Source of the DNA: Antedon mediterranea
Lineage: Eukaryota; Echinodermata; Crinoidea; Comatulida; Antedonidae
NCBI RefSeq assembly: GCF_964355755.1
Contig: NC_092679.1
Span: 560,001 to 624,000, forward strand
Reading direction: 5' to 3'
Length of the DNA: 64,000 nt
In this document: positions 1,341 through 63,384 of the stretch, one piece after another
Layout: the number at the start of each line of letters is the position of its first letter
How positions within the stretch are numbered: the first letter of the stretch is position 1
Notes under the pieces: model-generated
What the model was told of the DNA's origin: nothing
What the model saw: only the letters and a program-made list of their open reading frames with translations
Database searches by the model: none
Position numbers and translations under genes: made by a program

Positions 1341-2651
1341 TTACGTTAGACATGGCTTACATGTTAACAACTTTTTGAAAGTGTTTCGGAAGAGCTCGTT
1401 TGCTAGGGCATAACAAATCGGGTTAATTGTTGAATTAATGTAACACAACCAATAACTTAAATGAAATATTGAATTAGGAATCGCTTCATTGTTCCATGAC
1501 ATAATGATCACAACAGTACAATATGGACTCCATGTTAAGAAAAAAGCACCAAGAATAAACGAGAGAGTCCGAGTGGCTTTGCGTTCGCTCTTACTTTGCC
1601 GATCACCACCCGAACGTTTCTTTTTAGACTGTCGTTTGGTGTGCTCAGTCTGTTTTTTTAGTAAACTTTGTTTCTTCTCATCTTCTGTCTTTTTACGTCT
1701 TGATGTGGGTAATTTACTTTCCAATTTCTTATCAGACGATGAAGTATCATCATCAACGTCTGTTTCTGCCTGACGACTTTCTTGCGCGTCACACTCATAA
1801 CGCGTCGTTGTTGACGCGCCATTCAATGGTAGTGCCGAATACTTTGTTGTTTTTCCATTTCCCGACGAATGAAACGCTGAGTCTGCATTACTTGTATTGT
1901 CAATTGTCGCGAGTTGTGCGCCTTGCTCCGTTACAACTGTAGCCGTGGTTGCAGCAGTGTTACTACGTGCAGTCGCATTTATCTGTTGTTTTGTGCGTTT
2001 CTTTCGCGTCAATCCTCGAATAATGTAGTATATATACGAATACATTATTACCATGCTTGCCAACGGTATCCAAAACACACAAATAGTTGAAATAGTCATG
2101 AATAATGGCGATTCGTACATAAATGGGATGTAACACTCATTCCATGGCCTGTCATTTGCACTGTCAGGGAAAAAATAGGGCCAGCCTATAATAGATGTGA
2201 AGTATAAAAGAATTGGGCAAACCCATGTTGGTATTATCATGACTATGGCACGCTTAATTGTCATATTGTTTCGATATGATGTCGGACTACTCACAGACCA
2301 AACTCGATCAATGCTAATCATAATTAAATTCAAAACAGACGCTTCTGATACAGCAAAATCAACTGCGGACCAGAAATCGCACATGAACGCACTAAACGGC
2401 CAACACTCAAGTATAATATACACAGCATATATAGGCATTGAAAATACACCGATGATGACGTCAGCGCAGGCAAGACTTAACAAAAAATAGTTGCTAGGGC
2501 GATGTAGTCGACGTTCAATCTTGAATGACATCATTACCATGATGTTACCAGCTATCGTTATGATCATTCCAATAAAAACGCTTATCGATATCAAAGCAAC
2601 CACCAAACTGGATTTTTGTATCTCTTCATATAGACAGGTATTATTCGACAT
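1341..2651 (-). CDS. Muscarinic acetylcholine receptor-like GPCR (class A), complete coding exon
   Basis: A seven-transmembrane, G-protein-coupled receptor of the plasma membrane, 436 residues from the chosen ATG. Landmarks: N36 in TM1, D64 in TM2 (LACAD), the C91-C173 disulfide pair, amine-anchor D98 in TM3, DRV (115-117) in place of DRY, W143 in TM4, P196 in TM5, FFLTWSPY in TM6 (W374, P376) and NSTINPICY in TM7 (407-414). The third intracellular loop is about 145 residues, basic and Ser/Thr-rich, as in muscarinic receptors. VSEASVLNLIMISIDR, SYWLCYINSTINPICYAL and FRNTFKKLL resemble muscarinic receptors more than other amine receptors. The pocket is altered: Y3.33 is F99, N6.52 is C378 and W4.57 is Y150, while Y377, Y400 and Y404 are kept. 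NNT at 3-5 is a likely glycosylation site. The longer frame starting at 2687 is rejected because its first 12 codons overlap a 3' splice site. Ligand and G protein cannot be read from the sequence. Confidence 0.93.
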   Translation of the reverse strand: MSNNTCLYEEIQKSSLVVALISISVFIGMIITIAGNIMVMMSFKIERRLHRPSNYFLLSLACADVIIGVFSMPIYAVYIILECWPFSAFMCDFWSAVDFAVSEASVLNLIMISIDRVWSVSSPTSYRNNMTIKRAIVMIIPTWVCPILLYFTSIIGWPYFFPDSANDRPWNECYIPFMYESPLFMTISTICVFWIPLASMVIMYSYIYYIIRGLTRKKRTKQQINATARSNTAATTATVVTEQGAQLATIDNTSNADSAFHSSGNGKTTKYSALPLNGASTTTRYECDAQESRQAETDVDDDTSSSDKKLESKLPTSRRKKTEDEKKQSLLKKQTEHTKRQSKKKRSGGDRQSKSERKATRTLSFILGAFFLTWSPYCTVVIIMSWNNEAIPNSIFHLSYWLCYINSTINPICYALANELFRNTFKKLLTCKPCLT

Positions 2652-2656
2652 CTTTG

Positions 2657-2676
2657 CTGAGAATAAAAACAACATA
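2657..2676 (-). promoter_or_regulatory. 3' splice site just upstream of the receptor ATG
   Basis: On the minus strand a pyrimidine-rich stretch, TTGTTTTTATTCTCAG, ends at 2657. It is followed by CAAAG and then the ATG at 2651. This matches an intron end closely and explains why the frame appears to extend upstream through hydrophobic codons: those codons are the polypyrimidine tract. The 5' UTR is therefore spliced from at least one upstream exon at higher coordinates. Confidence 0.7.
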
Positions 2677-2844
2677 ATAATTAACATTAATTATGTACAG
2701 CATGCAACAGATTCTGCGCACGCTCAGAAACATTAAGCGTGCGTAGCATTATTGTATTCTCAATCTGCGCAGCGCGTTCGCTGTGAAAGCCAATGATCCT
2801 AATGTTTACAAATGCAAATGAAGTTAAAGTTAGATGAAAGTTAC

Positions 2845-26603: not shown

Positions 26604-26660
26604 GTACGATGATGTATAGAAACATATACTATGATGATGTATAGAAACATATACTATGAC
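26604..26660. repeat. Direct duplication of 25 bp
   Basis: ATGATGTATAGAAACATATACTATG occurs twice in tandem, immediately before the Penelope-like fragment. It may be a partial copy of the element's start. Confidence 0.7.
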
Positions 26661-26860
26661 GTTATCCAAATTCCTTCACTTGCACTGATGAAGGGCTAGT
26701 TTTGCCCGAAAGCTCTGCTAACTTTTCTGGCTGTTTTACTTTATCGTTTTGATTTAGCTTTTTCACTTTTTTGTTGTATCTCCATTGAGATCCAGCCACT
26801 GATACCCACAGCATTGTCATTTTTTCAGTAATTTGCCTTTGGATTTATATATATATCAAA
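26650..26860 (+). mobile_element. Penelope-like element fragment, copy 1
   Basis: This stretch is repeated in inverted orientation at 34983-35222 with high similarity, from TACTATGACGTTAT through CACTGATGAAGGGCTAG, GCCCGAAAGCTCTGC, GAGATCCAGCCACTGAT and ATTTGCCTTTGGATTTATATATA. Penelope-like retroelements of animals are known to carry hammerhead ribozyme motifs, and this fragment has such a core at 26680-26719. No reverse transcriptase or GIY-YIG frame is present, so the class assignment rests on the ribozyme-like core and is tentative. Confidence 0.5.
26680..26719 (+). ncRNA. Hammerhead-like ribozyme core, minimal form
   Basis: CTGATGA (26685-26691) is followed by a GGGC/GCCC stem II (26693-26696 with 26704-26707) and GAAA (26708-26711). 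After a 2-base loop come TC and TGC (26714-26718). TTGCA at 26680-26684 can pair with TGC by three base pairs as a short stem I. An alternative folding gives stem III AGC/GCT but then no stem I. Core bases match the hammerhead consensus; activity is doubtful with such short stems. Confidence 0.5.
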
Positions 26861-34290: not shown

Positions 34291-34672
34291 TTGTTTTCGC
34301 GACGTGACCCACGGCTCGCGTGGCCCGTATCGTGAAATTGAAAAATATGAACATTCATTAATTATATCTTGCTATGACCTCGTACACAAACTATGAAATT
34401 AAATAAGAGATTGTGATGACGCGGTTAGGTTTCATTATTGAGGTTTCATTTCTATCGAATTCGTTACATATTGCGTTATAGTGTTACATATTGCGTTACA
34501 TATTTCGTTACAAAGCAACATCTTTATCTATATATTACATTACGTGGTAACGAATATCGTATCACATGATTTATATAATAGTACTTATTATTGATAACCG
34601 AGTAACCCTAGAAATGATTGCATAGGCCTCCATTTTATCGAGATAAACGTAATAATGTATTACTATGAGTGT

Positions 34673-34981
34673 TAAGATCGAAACAGTACTGTCTGCAGAT
34701 TGGATATTATGCTCCTCTACTTTCTGCTATATACTATAGTATGTTGTTTTGTAGAGCACTCTTCAGTTCGAAACGGTTCATTTTGTTGTGAATACTATTA
34801 GCATTTTGCAAAGCACGCTCGTTGAGCTTGTGCACTCTTTGTGTTCATAATCAGTGTACCATGTCCCGCAGACCTGGCTCAGCCTATATATTGTGCTAGT
34901 TCTGCGGTACATTTCATTTCGAAACCTGAGTTGCACTGACGAGATCTAATAAGATCGAAACAGTACTGTCTGCAGATTGGA
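34673..34981 (+). mobile_element. Retrozyme-like element: 277 bp unit between hammerhead sequences
   Basis: Identical 32-base direct repeats lie at 34673-34704 and 34950-34981, containing GATCGAAACAGTACTGTC and TGCAGATTGGA. The distance between the two predicted cleavage points (after 34693 and 34970) is 277 bases. The right-hand copy has the complete hammerhead ribozyme; the left-hand copy keeps the 3' half only. After the second cleavage site the next unit begins (TGCAGATTGGA) and then breaks into a TA repeat. Animal retrozymes are non-coding retroelements of a few hundred bases, often in tandem, whose hammerheads free unit-length RNAs that circularise. The layout fits one full unit plus part of the ribozyme on each side. 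Alternatively it is a relic of a Penelope-like element's partial terminal repeats. There is no coding frame. Confidence 0.7.
34931..34975 (+). ncRNA. Hammerhead ribozyme, complete core and three stems
   Basis: Stem I: TTGCA (34931-34935) pairs with TGCAG (34971-34975), four Watson-Crick pairs plus one G-U. Core: CTGACGA (34936-34942), matching CUGANGA. Stem II: GATC/GATC (34943-34946 with 34953-34956) around TAATAA. Then GAAA (34957-34960). Stem III: ACAG/CTGT (34960-34963 with 34966-34969) closed by TA. Cleavage site GTC with C at 34970. Every conserved hammerhead position that I can check is filled. The order makes it a type I hammerhead (open at stem I). Stem III is a palindrome (ACAGTACTGT), so two copies in one RNA could also pair as a dimer, as described for short-stem-III hammerheads. 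Self-cleavage is a prediction. Confidence 0.85.
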
Positions 34982-34982
34982 G

Positions 34983-35431
34983 ATATATATATATATATAT
35001 ATAATTATATATATATAAATCCAAAGGCAAATTACTGAAAAAAATGACAATGCTGTGGGTATCATCAGTGGCTGGATCTCAATGGAGATATGATACCAAA
35101 AAAAAGCGAAAAAGCTAAATCAAAACGATAAGTAAAACAGCCAGAAAAGTTAGCAGAGCTTTCGGGCAACACTAGCCCTTCATCAGTGCAAGTGAAGGAA
35201 TTTGAATAACGTCATAGTATAAGAATTGGCAAGTGCTGCCTGGGTGGACAGGAATAAAAGAAATACAACAAAAGGAGACAGGGTGGAGTCTGAATAAGAG
35301 TAGAAAACAACAAAAGGAGACAGGGTGGAGTCTGAATAAGAGTAGAAAACAAAGAAGGTAGCTTGGTAAAGATATAAACAATTTAGAATGAAACTAAAAA
35401 ACAGCTTATATATATATATATATATATATAC
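34983..35431 (-). mobile_element. Penelope-like element fragment, copy 2, bounded by TA repeats
   Basis: 34983-35222 matches 26650-26860 in inverted orientation. It continues to about 35405 with extra sequence, including a 45 bp tandem duplication at 35264-35353 (CAACAAAAGGAGACAGGGTG). TA microsatellites flank both sides (34983-35020 and 35407-35431). The fragment begins immediately after the retrozyme-like element. No transposition enzyme frame is present. Confidence 0.5.
35153..35192 (-). ncRNA. Hammerhead-like ribozyme core, second copy
   Basis: On the minus strand CTGATGA (35186-35180) is followed by GGGC and GCCC as stem II, GAAA (35163-35160), and TCTGC (35157-35153). It is the same as the motif at 26680-26719 apart from one loop base. 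Conservation of core, stem II and the TTGCA/TGC ends in both copies supports a common functional ancestor. Confidence 0.5.
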
Positions 35432-35721
35432 AATAAATAAAATTATCCAATCTATAAAATTACGTGTTCATTATAAAATCTTTCTCTAAGTGTTCCGATG
35501 CGTGGAAATGATCTTACACATTCCAAGGAGAAACATAGCTGTGGACATTGGACTTTCCCATGTGTTGGACCTAGAATCTGACTTTATACATTAGAAATAC
35601 GTCATCTTTGGACAGTTTTAAGCCACTTCTAACAAGTGTTTTTTTTTTCCTTTTTTGAAACAAAAGACATATCATATAAACATGAGAGAAGTCATTTTTA
35701 ACATACTATGTATGCATGGTA

Positions 35722-38984: not shown

Positions 38985-40150
38985 TATTGCAAAGTCGTTA
39001 TAAATAGAAGTTGGAATTGTAAGTGTTTAAATGTATTCATTGAACCGTATAAACATACTTGGAATGTTTCTTTCAAACAGAAGTTTGGAATTGGAACTGT
39101 TTAAATGTATTCATTGAACTGCAGCAACTACTTGCAGAGTTTAAATTGGAACTGTTTTTCTTGAACTGTAACTTGGAAAGTTTCTTTTAAACAGAAGTTA
39201 GGAATTGAAACTTCTTTTTGTTTTAAAGTGTAACAACTTGGTAAGTTTCTTTTAAAACAGAAGTTTGCAATTGGAACTGGTTTTTGTTTTAAAGTGTAAC
39301 AACTTGGTAAGTTTCTTTTAAAACAGAAGTTTGCAATTGGAACTGGTTTTTGTTTTAAACTGTAACAACTTGGTAAGTTTCTTTTAAATAGAAGTTTGGA
39401 ATTGAAACTGCTTTTCCCTAAACTGTAACAACTTGGAAAGTTTCTTTTAAACAGAAGTTTGGAATTGAAACTGCTTTTCCCTAAACTGTAACAACTTGGT
39501 AAGTTTCTTTTGAATAGAAGTTTGGAATTGAAACTGCTTTTCCCTAAACTGTAACAACTTGGAAAGTTTCTTTTAAACAGAAGTTTGGAATTGAAACTGC
39601 TTTTCCCTAAACTGTATCAACTTGGTAAGTTTATTTTGAATATAAGTTTGGAATTGAAACTGCCTTTCCCTAAACTGTAACAACTTGGTAAGTTTATTTT
39701 AAACAGAAGTTTGGAATTGAAACTGCTTTTCCCTAAACTGTAACAACTTGGTAAGTTTATTTTAAACAGAAGTTTGGAATTGAAACTGCTTTTTCCTAAA
39801 CTGTAACAACTTTGAAAGTTTCTTTTAAAACCGAAGTTTGGAATTGGAACTGCTTTTTGTTTTAAACTGTAACAACTTGGTAAGTTTCTTTTGAATAAGT
39901 TGGAATTGTAACTGTTTTTCCTGAACTGTAGACACTTTCTGGAATTTCTTTGAAATAGAAGTTAAAATTGTAAATGTTATTCTTGAGAAACTATTTGGAA
40001 AATTTGTTTTTAAATAGAAGTTGGAATTGGATTTACTGAACTATAGACACTTTTTTTTCGGAATTTCTTTTAATTAGAACTTAAAATTGGAACTGTGAAA
40101 TGTAGAAACTATTTTGAAATTTTTTAAATAGAAGTTGGAATTGGAACGTC
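38985..40150. repeat. Satellite-like array, 63 bp unit, about 18 copies
   Basis: GGAATTGAAACTGC occurs at 39461, 39524 and 39587 (63 bp spacing). The unit includes TAACAACTTGGTAAGTTTCT and AACAGAAGTTTGGAATTG. Central copies (39350-39830) are nearly identical, and both edges decay into shorter variants, the pattern expected of unequal exchange with homogenised centre. The embedded TTGGTAAGTTT resembles a 5' splice site in every copy. Confidence 0.9.
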
Positions 40151-41282: not shown

Positions 41283-42035
41283 AGGAACGAAATGGCAGTA
41301 CACTGGGGATATAACGGAATGACAGGACACTGGGGATATAACGGAATGACAGGACACTGGGGATATAACGAAATGACAGTACACTGGAGATATAACGGAA
41401 TGACAGGACACTGGGGATATAACGGAATGACAGGACACTGGGGATATAACGAAATGATAGTACACTGGGAATATAACGAAATGACAGTACACTGGGGATA
41501 TAACGGAATGACAATACATTGAGGATATAACGGAATGACAATACACTGGGGATATAACGGAATGAGAGTACACTGGGGATATAACGGAATGACAATACAT
41601 TGAGGATATAACAAAATGAGAGTACACTGGGGATATAACGAATTGACAGTACACTGGGAATATAACGAAATGACAGTACACTGGGGATATAACGGAATGA
41701 TAGTACACTTTCGGATATAATGAAATGACAGTACATTGGAGATATAACGAAATGACAGGACACTGGGGATGTAACAAAATGACAGTACACTGGGGATATA
41801 ACGAAATAACAGTACACTGGGGATATAACGAATTGATAGTACACTGGGGATATAATGAAATGACAGTACACTGGAGATATAACGAATTGACAGTAAAATG
41901 AGGATATAACGAAATGACAGTACACTGGGAATATAACAAAATTATTACAGTACACTGGAGATATAACAAAATTACACTACACTGGAGATATAACGAAATA
42001 ACAGTACACTGGGGATATAACGGCATTTCAGTACA
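41283..42035. repeat. Minisatellite, 27 bp unit, about 28 copies
   Basis: The unit is GGATATAACGGAATGACAGT plus ACACTGG, with variants in several positions. One copy at 41700-41720 is diverged (CACTTTCGGATATAATG). Period 27 gives open frames of up to 273 codons on the minus strand (PVYCHFVIS-type nonapeptide repeats), which I do not take as coding. Confidence 0.93.
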
Positions 42036-43355
42036 CTGTCAGCTTGTTCCATAATTTGTAAATATTATAGGCCTACCTAATGGATACACTACACGCAAAG
42101 TAACAATTACAGATTAACTAAAAATAATTTCCTTTCTGGTTTAATATTAGTGGTCGATTATTCTATGAAAATAACATGCGTCTTATATAGACCCGAAACA
42201 TTAGAACGTCATGTGAACACTCTATATTGTATTTACACACAATGTATGTAGACCTATACATTGTACGGACTTCATTATGCTCACTTCTTTCCCTTAAACT
42301 GTTCTCTATAACAAAAATCAGTGAAAATTGATTGCCGTGTATCAATTGCGTTGTACTAGTCGTTAACATTAGCAATCCGGATTACCTGCGAAATGCCAAT
42401 ATTGTGGCTTAACTAAATTTTATTTAGCAATAGTATGTCAGAAAAAAGTCTATTAATTTAGAACACGTACGTCACGATAAATCAATATTGAAATTCATAT
42501 ACAAATTGTAATTAAATCTATTGTTCTCAACAATCAATAAAAATTGGTTTGTAAAGCAAAAAAAAAGCGAAGTAAAATTTGCATACCAATATACATGGAG
42601 TCAAATTTGCATATCAAAACACGTGAAGTAAAACGTGTATCAGTTTGAAATAGCCATTCATTTTGCAGGGTCTCAAATTTGCATATTTTGCACACGTGTA
42701 ATGAAATTTGTATATATATATAACACTGTTTGAATAAATTATGGAGGAATTAAGACTAAGTCTTTTATATCTGTTTTCATTGTGTAACTTTATCTGGTAA
42801 CTAATCAGAAAAACTAGGCCTATGTCCGCCGCCGCCGCGCGCGTACGTTTTTATATTTCTTTTATTTCACCGCTTGTTTTACTACATTTCGTACAGTAAA
42901 CACACACACACATAATATATATACAGTATATATATATATTATATGTTCATGTATCAATGAGAATAAGAAAGCAATTTGTAAGTAATAATTATAACCGGCT
43001 GAAAACAGCAAAGCAGAATAATAATGTAATTTTTGTTCTACTTTCTAATTCCTGAATGTACAATAATGAATAAAAAACAAACAAAAAATGAACATTTTGT
43101 AACAAAAAATAATAATAAAAATACCGATTCAAGACCCAGAAAGATACTGTAGTAGTAATCAGGGGAAAAATAAACAACCGTCAACCAGAAGAGTAAAAGA
43201 ATTCGGATTTCAACGGAGAAGAGAAGAGGAAATTAGATGGGCCATGCGAAATATATACTTATGAATTGTTTTTAGCTTATTAGAATACGATTATTTGTTA
43301 TTATAAAATATACTAGTTTTTGCATGAAAGTATAACATTACATTTATTTTGGGGC
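42036..43355. other. No gene seen; microsatellites at 42829-42945
   Basis: CCGCCGCCGCCGCGCGCG at 42828-42844 is the most GC-rich short run nearby. (CA)n and (TA)n runs follow at 42900-42945. AAATTTGCATA phrases repeat loosely at 42577-42700. No coding signal. Confidence 0.45.
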
Positions 43356-45777: not shown

Positions 45778-46450
45778 GTTTGGTTCTCACTGGGACTGTA
45801 CACATAAAGCTTGGTTCACACTGCACTTGGACACATAAAGCTTGGTTCTCACTGGGACTGGACACATAAAGCTTGGTTCCCACTGCACTTGGACACATAA
45901 AGCTTGGTTCCCATCTGCACTTGGACACACAAAGCTTGGTTTCCACTGCGCCTGGACACATAAAGCTTGGTTCCCACTGCACTTGGACACACAAAGCTTG
46001 GTTCCCACTGCACTTGGACACATAAAGCTTGGTTCCCATCTGCACTTGAACACACAAAGCTTGGTTCCCACTGCGCCTGGACACATAAAGCTTGGTTCCC
46101 ACTGCACTTGGACACACAAAGCTTGGTTCCCACTGCGCCTGGACACATAAAGCTTGGTTCCCACTGCACTTGGACACATAAAGCTTGGTTCCCACTGCAC
46201 TTGGACAAACAAAGCTTGGTTCCCACTGCGCCTGGACAAAGAAAGCTTGGTTCCCACTGCACTTGGACACACAAAGCTTGGTTTCCACTGCACGTGGACA
46301 CACAAAGCTTGGTTCCCACTGCGCTTGGACACATAAAGCTTGGTTCCCACTGCGCCTGGACACATAATTAGCTTGGTCCCCACTGCACTTGGACACGTAA
46401 AGCTTGGTTCCCACTGCACTTGGACATAAAGCTTGGTTCCCACTGCAGCG
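45778..46450. repeat. Minisatellite, 31 bp unit derived from the MITE-1 terminus
   Basis: About 21 copies of AAAGCTTGGTTCCCACTGCA plus CTTGGACACAT. The first 18 bases equal the MITE-1 end (AAAGCTTGGTTCCCACT). Two main variants, GCACTTGG and GCGCCTGG, are mixed. A few copies have a one-base insert (CCATCTGCAC). Sequence resembling the inner part of MITE-1 follows at once (46450-46535). Several long open frames on both strands are by-products of the unit lacking stops. Confidence 0.92.
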
Positions 46451-59392: not shown

Positions 59393-60399
59393 GGGGTAAC
59401 CTATGGAACGCCTCCTCTGCCTTCAGTTCACATTTATCATGCATTACACACCAATCGTCATGCAGTACACACCAATGGTCATGCAGTACACACCAATGGT
59501 CATGCAGTACACACCAATCGTCATGCAGTACACACCAAACGTCATGCAGTACACACCAATCGTCATGCAGTACACACCAATCGTCATGCAGTACACACCA
59601 AACGTCATGCAGTACACACCAATCGTCATGCAGTACACACCAATCGTCATGCAGTACACACCAATCGTCATGCAGTACACACCAATCGTCATGCAGTACA
59701 CACCAAACATCATGCAGTACACACCAATCGTCATGCAGTACACACCAAACGTCATGCACTACACACCAATCGTCATGCAGTACACACCAATCGTCATGCA
59801 GTACACACCAATCGTCATGCAGTACACACCAAACATCATGCAGTACACACCAAACGTCATGCAGTACACACCAATCGTCATGCAGTACACACCAATCGTC
59901 ATGCAGTACACACCAATCGTCATGCAGTACACACCAATCGTCATGCAGTCAAATATTGCATAATCTATACCGCCACCTATCGACAAAATCGAATATCAGG
60001 TGACGTTTATTAGACGGCTGTAAAACTAAGGCTATACAAATGTTATACTACAGCAACTCACGCTGTCTACTACTACACCGCACATGCTTTACGTCCTATA
60101 GATTCCAAGATTTCTTTAATAGTTTTTTCAAGCCATTTTAGTTATAAAGCACGTGCGGTGTAGTAGTAGACATCGAGTTGCTGTAGTATAATGTTTGAAT
60201 AGCCTTAGTTTTACAGCCGTCTAATAAACGTCACGTGATATTCGATTTTGTCGATAGGTGGCGGTATAAATTACGCAATATTTGACTGCATGACGATTGG
60301 TGTGTACTGCATGACGATTGGTGTGTACTGCATGACGATTGGTGTGTACTGCATGATAAATGTGAACTGAAGGCAGAGGAGGCGTTCCATAGTAACCCC
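59393..60399. mobile_element. Foldback (long inverted repeat) element, about 1 kb
   Basis: The two ends are inverted copies: GGGGTAACCTATGGAACGCC and CCTCTGCCTTCAGTTCACA on the left; the complement to TATAGTAACCCC on the right. Inner arms 59947-60093 and 60143-60290 are again complementary, for example CCGCCACCTATCGACAAAATCGA, TTTATTAGACGGCTGTAAAACTAAGGCTAT and CTACTACTACACCGCAC. About 50 bases form the central loop (60093-60143). A 21 bp minisatellite lies within each arm at the same place, with about 24 copies on the left and 3 on the right. There is no coding frame. The RNA of this region would form a long hairpin inside the NDUFAF5 intron. Confidence 0.9.
59437..59951. repeat. Minisatellite, 21 bp unit, about 24 copies, inside the foldback left arm
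   Basis: The unit is CATGCAGTACACACCAATCG plus T, with ACG and ATC/GGT variants. The right arm of the same element (60286-60353) holds three inverted copies. Frames on both strands are open because of the period (QYTPIVM and GVYCMTI peptides); rejected as genes. Confidence 0.95.
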
Positions 60400-62647: not shown

Positions 62648-63384
62648 AGATCCTAATCTTATCATAATGAAGATCCTAATCTTATCATAATGAAGATCCT
62701 AATCTTATCATAATGAAGATCCTAATCTTATCATAAATGAGATCCTAATCTTATCATAATCAAGATCCTAATCTTATCATAATCAAGATCCTAATCTTAT
62801 CATAATCAAGATTCTAATCTTATCATAATCAAGATCCTAATCTTATCATAATCAAGATCCTAATCTTATCATAATCAAGATCCTAATCTTATCATAATCA
62901 AGATTCTAATCTTATCATAATCAAGATCCTTCTCTTATCATAATCAAGATCCTAATCTTATCATAATCAAGATCCTAATCTTATCATAATCAAGATCCTA
63001 ATCTTATCATAATCAAGATCCTAATCTTATCATAATCAAGATCCTAATCTTATCATAATCAAGATCCTAATCTTATCATAATCAAGATTCTAATCTTATC
63101 ATAATCAAGATCCTTCTCTTATCATAATCAAGATCCTAATCTTATCATAATCAAGATCCTAATCTTACCATAATCAAGATCCTAATCTTATCATAATCAA
63201 GATCCTAATCTTATCATAATCAAGATCCTAATCTTATCATAATCAAGATCCTAATCTTATCATAATCAAGATTCTAATCTTATCATAATCAAGATCCTTC
63301 TCTTATCATAATCAAGATCCTAATCTTATCATAATCAAGATCCTAATCTTACCATAATCAAGATCCTAATCTTATCATAATCAA
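62648..63384. repeat. Satellite, 23 bp unit, about 32 copies, with a 184 bp higher-order period
   Basis: The unit is AGATCCTAATCTTATCATAA plus TCA. Variant units recur at fixed distance: AGATTCTAATC at 62901, 63085 and 63269; GATCCTTCTCTTA one unit after each; CTTACCATAA near 63165 and 63349. All spacings are 184 = 8 x 23, so blocks of eight units were amplified together. The left edge uses an older variant (ATAATGAAG). Confidence 0.95.

Follow-up and report, generated by a model that had tools for sequence, protein, structure and literature searches.

A predicted non-LTR retrozyme family in the crinoid Antedon mediterranea with an insertion scar resembling that of a Penelope-like element

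A hammerhead ribozyme motif lies at the end of a short repeated unit in a 64,000-nucleotide stretch of the genome of the crinoid Antedon mediterranea (the window, by which we mean the whole of this stretch). Does this locus carry a retrozyme and, if so, which enzyme inserts its copies? Metazoan non-LTR retrozymes from coral, mussel, and axolotl are described by Cervera and de la Pena (2020) in passages of PMC7229834, with units of 150-450 bp and a GC content below 50%. Animal retrozymes are without an established mobilising partner, and the published passages leave the question open. According to a passage of a 2020 review, conserved motifs that would give a clue to the mobiliser were absent (PMC7761336), and a Penelope-like partner has been proposed mainly on the basis of type I hammerheads, tandem occurrence, and presence in the same genomes (excerpts of PMC7229834 and PMC7761336). 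We consider it probable that the locus is a non-autonomous metazoan non-LTR retrozyme insertion, for which we propose a cycle with a Penelope-like reverse transcriptase (RT)/endonuclease.

Both strands of the 64-kb window were scanned for a hammerhead core flanked by stems I, II, and III of at least 4, 3, and 3 bp, respectively. A single type I site was found, compared with 2 sites in 200 dinucleotide shuffles; this result and the many genomic copies described below rule out a chance motif. The core motifs CTGACGA (34936-34942) and GAAA (34957-34960) and the cleavage site GTC (34968-34970) were found where the first-pass annotation had placed them, together with a stem I of 5 bp, including one U.G pair, and a stem II of 4 bp, or 5 bp when the closing U-A is counted. 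The same annotation had described stem III as a palindromic stem of 4 bp. The palindrome was confirmed but the strength was not: as a hairpin, the stem has three pairs (A-U, C-G, and A-U) with a GUAC loop and is unstable alone (+1.3 kcal/mol). Between two copies, the palindrome ACAGUACUGU is predicted to form a 10-bp duplex of -13.4 kcal/mol. In its weak palindromic helix III, the ribozyme is like those of axolotl retrozymes, and the amphibian ones cut as pairs (passages of PMC7229834).

A covariance-model check had been suggested for this site, with a score below threshold counting against the reading, and the score does fall below threshold. No match was obtained in the window at the Rfam gathering cut-offs; under relaxed conditions HH9 (RF02275) was detected at 34919-34989, scoring 25.6 bits where 52 are required, with an E of 3.4e-4 in a search of 461 bases. 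HH9 was also matched in 10 of 10 other genomic copies, picked for an intact core among the 40 loci described below (14 matches, 23.3-33.5 bits, E 3e-5 to 0.06). Since the scores of the window and the ten chosen copies were all below the gathering score of 52, and hence outside the Rfam hammerhead clan (CL00010), the term "type I hammerhead" is used here for a structure and not for an Rfam member. A Penelope-like ribozyme in place of a retrozyme at this site was ruled out by the full stems and by the non-coding nature of the unit. A hammerhead pattern scan of viral contigs returned at least 120 stretches, which are unrelated to the animal element.

A direct repeat precedes the ribozyme (Table 1). 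The first-pass annotation had reported a 32-base repeat carrying the 3' half of the ribozyme 277 bp upstream; the repeat is indeed exact over these 32 bases, and it extends to 35 nt at 97% identity (34673-34707 versus 34950-34984, spacing 277). The accompanying description of one monomer between two hammerheads holds for the downstream ribozyme, which is complete, but not for the upstream one, which is only half a ribozyme in an insertion of 1.1 units. The upstream copy begins within the stem II loop and would be unable to cut alone because neither CUGANGA nor the 5' strand of stem I is present; at most, it could be a substrate of the downstream core if the two formed a double hammerhead. The unit is not overlapped by any frame that measures 110 or more amino acids from stop to stop, and no long direct repeat that might represent LTRs was found in 34300-35500 apart from the unit overlap. 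When folded as a circle, the 277-nt plus strand reached -76.5 kcal/mol, compared with -58.9 ± 4.6 kcal/mol for shuffled sequences (z -3.8, 1 of 200 as low), and 64% of it was paired. The minus-strand circle was weaker (z -1.9, 6 of 200 shuffles as low). The hammerhead is not the minimum-energy fold, either in the circle (-68.9 kcal/mol when constrained versus -76.5) or in the 56-nt motif (-6.8 versus -11.3 kcal/mol). Elsewhere in the window lies a single-exon muscarinic acetylcholine receptor frame (1341-2687, minus strand). Its counterpart in the crinoid Anneissia japonica matches it at 87% identity and, among the best 120 of 299 matches, those of other named echinoderms at 45-48%, which agrees with a crinoid host other than A. 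japonica. The window also holds many minisatellite arrays (52 rows; e.g., 62648-63384, 41286-42038, 45780-46447, 39170-39930, and 59437-59949).

Table 1. Features of the retrozyme locus and of the Penelope-like sequences in the window
Feature	Position	Strand	Remarks
Retrozyme insertion, ~1.12 units, 5'-truncated inside the ribozyme stem II loop	34673-34981	+	Direct repeat, family copies
Incomplete upstream ribozyme with stem II (3' part), GAAA, stem III, GTC, and stem I (3' strand), but without CUGANGA	34673-34704	+	
277-nt unit between two equivalent cleavage positions	34694-34970	+	GC 40.4%
Complete type I hammerhead (by structure)	34931-34975	+	Predicted cleavage after 34970
Palindrome ACAGTACTGT, helix III, suited to pairing between two ribozymes	34960-34969	+	
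3' junction, phase 11-14 past the cleavage site, running into (AT)n	34981-35017	+	
Penelope-like 3' end, 5'-truncated, (TA)n at both edges	35018-35406	-	Aligned 35010-35411
(TA)n flanking the Penelope-like fragment on its 5' side	35407-35430		
Second copy of the Penelope-like 3' end	26650-26856	+	93% identical to 35007-35221

The 309-bp insertion was used as a query against the 354-Mb assembly of 18 contigs, in which the window lies on contig C10. The search gave 325 first-look candidates, of which the best 40 were scored, so that all counts are lower bounds. At least 60 matches with 85-100% identity were found on 11 of the 18 contigs. We read 43 loci (L numbers), comprising the 40 best-scoring ones, with the window among them as L168, and three obtained with a query from the middle of the unit. 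The main segments measured 0.74-2.05 units in the 40 loci and 0.69-0.79 units in the three later ones, and no long tandem arrays were present among the loci read. There were 62 ribozyme hits, 52 of them long enough to be judged, and the whole core was intact in 37 of these 52 (38 of 40 loci, duplicates included). Six of the 40 loci (L129, L131, L133, L135, L136, and L155) contained two intact cores. The first-pass annotation had called the unit retrozyme-like and had made other genomic copies one of the points to look for; both the name and the expectation were borne out by a dispersed multi-copy family in the same genome, with copies of up to 2.05 units. As judged by its sequence, this is a real family, and it is a metazoan non-LTR retrozyme in a crinoid genome. 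The flanks of four copies on C10 at 13.75-14.02 Mb (L140, L143, L144, and L146), which lie 77-98 kb apart, are closely similar and probably reflect a segmental duplication.

Relative to the majority sequence, copies of the family show ~3% divergence per site; in the window copy, 5 of 277 sites depart from it. The conservation of the ribozyme was compared with that of the rest of the unit in 40 segments, from which L168 and four duplicates had been omitted. The mean minority fraction was 0.0305 in the ribozyme, 0.0333 in the rest of the unit, and 0.0368 in the core, and the ribozyme ranked 149th among 277 windows of the unit. Because the ribozyme is not better conserved, no selection is visible on the inserted copies, as would be expected if they decay neutrally.

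The family agrees with the metazoan retrozymes described in passages of PMC7229834 in its type I hammerhead per unit, 277-bp length, GC content of 40%, dimers and partial multimers, and non-coding nature, as well as in the strongly self-paired circle that is predicted and the Penelope-like elements in the same genome. It also resembles plant LTR retrozymes in being non-autonomous and in its hammerhead-processed circles, which are here predicted from sequence (passages of PMC4918200), but the plant elements have type III hammerheads, LTRs, and units of ~700 nt (excerpts of PMC7229834 and PMC7761336). In contrast to the metazoan retrozymes in the published passages, the present family has a crinoid host and a common 3' end beside the cleavage site, often in (TA)n. 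The words "echinoderm," "crinoid," and "sea urchin" are absent from the main texts of PMC7229834 and PMC7761336, and no paper combining "retrozyme" and "crinoid" was found among the open-licence papers searched. Passages of two papers on ribozymes in the sea urchin (Strongylocentrotus) concern HDV-like ones.

To describe the ends of the copies, the unit was treated as a circle of 277 positions, with phase 1 as the first base past the cleavage site. The 3' end fell at phase 5-18 in 39 of 45 segments, at exactly phase 14 in 25 of them; with the duplicate loci L143, L144, L146, and L152 dropped, the proportion was 36 of 41. Five segments end elsewhere: L131, L151, L164, and one piece each of L156 (the first) and L167 (the second, which is small). 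L156 is interrupted, and its second piece ends at phase 13. A query taken only from the middle of the unit, which is blind to the 3' end, retrieved 40 loci; 37 were already known, and phase 14 is the end point in each of the three new loci, so that a preference of the first query for the 3' end is not the cause. Combined without duplicates, 39 of 44 segments share the 3' end, compared with ~2 expected for evenly spread ends. Within 20 bp around this end, (AT)4 or longer was present in 23 of 41 segments as counted by script and in two of the three new loci as judged by eye (25 of 44, where the ATAT of the element may itself supply up to four of the eight letters), and was missing in 19 of 44. 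Background frequencies were 0.6% for the window and 2.0% for the remaining sequence of these loci. The 5' ends were scattered round the unit; TA was found at 15 of 41 of them, and a start at phase 8-13, corresponding to approximately one lap, was seen in 8 of 45 segments.

Target-site duplications were not consistent: in 36 copies, the mean longest word shared by the flanks was 7.6 versus 6.8 (5.8-8.1) in a mismatched-pair control, and L132 has one likely duplication of 16 bp. In metazoan retrozymes, such duplications, when present, are longer than 4 bp (passages of PMC7229834). Because the usual 3' end lies ~14 nt beyond the cleavage site, RNAs that terminate at the cut did not serve as templates; a circle and an uncut multimer fit this position alike. 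Some loci have a more complex structure. L155 contains three retrozyme pieces head to tail, two of them from phase 125, as if the template had been jumped repeatedly. In L131, L136, and L164, pieces start or end at phase 170-177, where they abut a common flanking sequence, ..TTATGTACGAAAAAAAAAATCGC; this looks like the capture and transport of a retrozyme by a larger repeat.

In the window, the (AT)n beyond the retrozyme leads into a Penelope-like fragment, which is a 3' end only. The family to which it belongs is abundant, with 2334 first-look candidates, of which 40 were scored. In L198 and L199, which are different places, a GIY-YIG frame ends 198 bp before the 3' piece, and the two loci have 1036 bp in common at 98.9% identity, spanning both the frame and the 3' end. 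A match to PF01541 (GIY-YIG) was obtained in L186:1368-1805, the same place as L199, with 25.3 bits against a cut-off of 22.6, and the L198 frame scored 21.6 bits, just under this cut-off. Relatives of the frame include GIY-YIG proteins annotated in Apostichopus and Holothuria. The fetched copies of the L198 family are 5'-truncated, and the GIY-YIG frame was seen without RT in the same frame.

Homology among L198-family copies stops at TTTGGATTT, after which TA follows. This terminus was reached by 30 of 52 segments from 20 fetched loci and two window stretches, a share that is biased because the query contained the terminus; what follows the terminus is unbiased. An alternating TA run of at least 8 followed in 24 of the 30, and one of at least 12 in 13. 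A count of 31 of 33 with TA arose partly by construction, the query itself having ended in TATATATA, and 24 of 30 is the cleaner figure. The 5' ends vary, with TA at 21 of 53 5' edges, in which L186 and L199 are one place and L183 is the query copy. The 3' ends of the two elements are alike, reading ..ATTGGATAT(AT)n in the retrozyme and ..TTTGGATTTATAT(AT)n in the GIY-YIG element. Other Penelope-like families in the genome carry RT and GIY-YIG in one frame (L201:3461-4891 and L202:3380-4828). Both domains score above cut-off in L201, as does RVT_1 in L202, where GIY-YIG has 21.6 bits of the 22.6 required. The L201 family ends in TTTATATTGAAA in three of three compared copies, without a TA tract or the TTGGAT-(TA)n terminus. 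As a separate observation, a portion of the Penelope-like 3' end has been amplified in tandem in L179:553-1837 (minus-strand coordinates), giving an array with units of ~68 bp.

In 7 of the 43 loci (L129, L149, L153, L163, L165, L168 in the window, and L203), the retrozyme has the Penelope-like element of the L198 family no more than 31 bp away. Adjacency alone does not prove a common enzyme because 4 of the 27 TA tracts in the window, 8 of which belong to one minisatellite, are Penelope-linked anyway; nor does this proportion support the idea that Penelope tails are favoured over TA tracts of other kinds. In L203, the retrozyme copy sits between two pieces of the Penelope-like 3' end. A hammerhead-like string, CTGATGA..GGGC..GCCCGAAA, occurs within the Penelope-like 3' end at 35160-35186 (minus strand) and 26685-26711 (plus strand), possibly as a degenerate minimal ribozyme. 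It was rejected as a ribozyme on account of an extra unpaired A, the absence of stem I, and the lack of an Rfam hit, no hammerhead having been found in 35020-35400 at E up to 10.

These results define what is new here, an insertion scar with a phase-locked TA junction that resembles the scar of a Penelope-like element. The common 3' end, the (AT)n beside it, and the like scar of the Penelope-like family support, without proving, that the retrozyme would be mobilised by such an element via internally started reverse transcription. The main reason for doubt about the partner is that the common (TA)n may mean a common target only.

The copies could have been moved, for instance, by a LINE (non-LTR retrotransposon) with a TA-rich 3' tail, in which case the (AT)n would be a slippage tail and the Penelope-like neighbour would merely like TA too. 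A fixed 3' end with variable 5' truncation is the classic scar of LINEs and SINEs as well, and near one Penelope-like locus there is a partial RVT_1 match (L183:2225-3082) with 29.0 bits against a cut-off of 29.6. However, a like 3' scar with TA at many 5' edges is present in a family that is itself Penelope-like, and the final bases before the tract are similar in the retrozyme and the Penelope-like element; we judge a LINE to be an unlikely mobiliser. Still more doubtful is a dead satellite-like repeat, with the hammerhead as a relic, that recombination or short microhomology joins at (TA)n had dispersed, for example through the capture of DNA circles at breaks. One-lap copies that start and end near the same ATAT (8 of 45) could be such circles and the ribozyme decays like the remainder of the unit, but many different starts with one common 3' end in most copies point to RNA copying, and ~3% divergence with most cores intact (37 of 52) suggests fairly recent activity.

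Under the preferred reading, a retrozyme copied by a Penelope-like enzyme, the cycle would begin with the transcription of copies with more than one unit. The hammerheads would cut the transcript, probably as pairs via the palindromic helix III, as the motif and its energies suggest, and in ribozymes paired in this manner the intact downstream core of the window could also cut the upstream half site. The 277-nt RNA would be closed into a circle by a host ligase, as proposed from published retrozymes. A Penelope-like RT/endonuclease would then open (TA)n and start RNA copying internally at AUAU, 11-14 nt downstream of the cleavage site, a start that we infer because most copies have a common 3' end with (AT)n beside it. 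Copying would run for ~0.7-2 laps and stop at variable points, often again at TA, in keeping with the 5' ends observed. We tentatively suggest, as a possible form of this step, that a (TA)n end freed by nicking pairs with the AUAU past the ligation point of the circular RNA and that the Penelope-like enzyme then runs for 0.7-2 laps.

A precedent for such a start is provided by the Poseidon Penelope-like protein of Anolis, which, according to passages of PMC11167929, cuts AT-rich DNA, starts at a fixed internal site of the RNA, and leaves a fixed "tail." We propose the present Penelope-like family, or one alike, as the copier at TA tracts because of this fixed internal start in Anolis and because AUAU can pair with a (TA)n end. 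AT-rich targets and a fixed internal start downstream of the hammerhead are features that the crinoid retrozyme shares with Poseidon in those passages. The two differ in that Poseidon encodes RT and GIY-YIG whereas the retrozyme codes for nothing, and in that the Anolis start site is not homologous to the cut DNA whereas in the crinoid retrozyme AUAU meets (TA)n (parts of PMC11167929). In Anolis, the hammerhead is dispensable for insertion in vitro (a passage of the same paper).

Insertions of the retrozyme agree with those of a specific GIY-YIG element in their 3' end and target, and the terminal bases are similar, which makes the Penelope proposal for animal retrozymes testable. If the annealing of (TA)n to the circular RNA is true, priming would need no RNA 3' end and the hammerhead would make an endless template. 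The fixed, TA-primed start would then explain the phase-locked insertions of the family.
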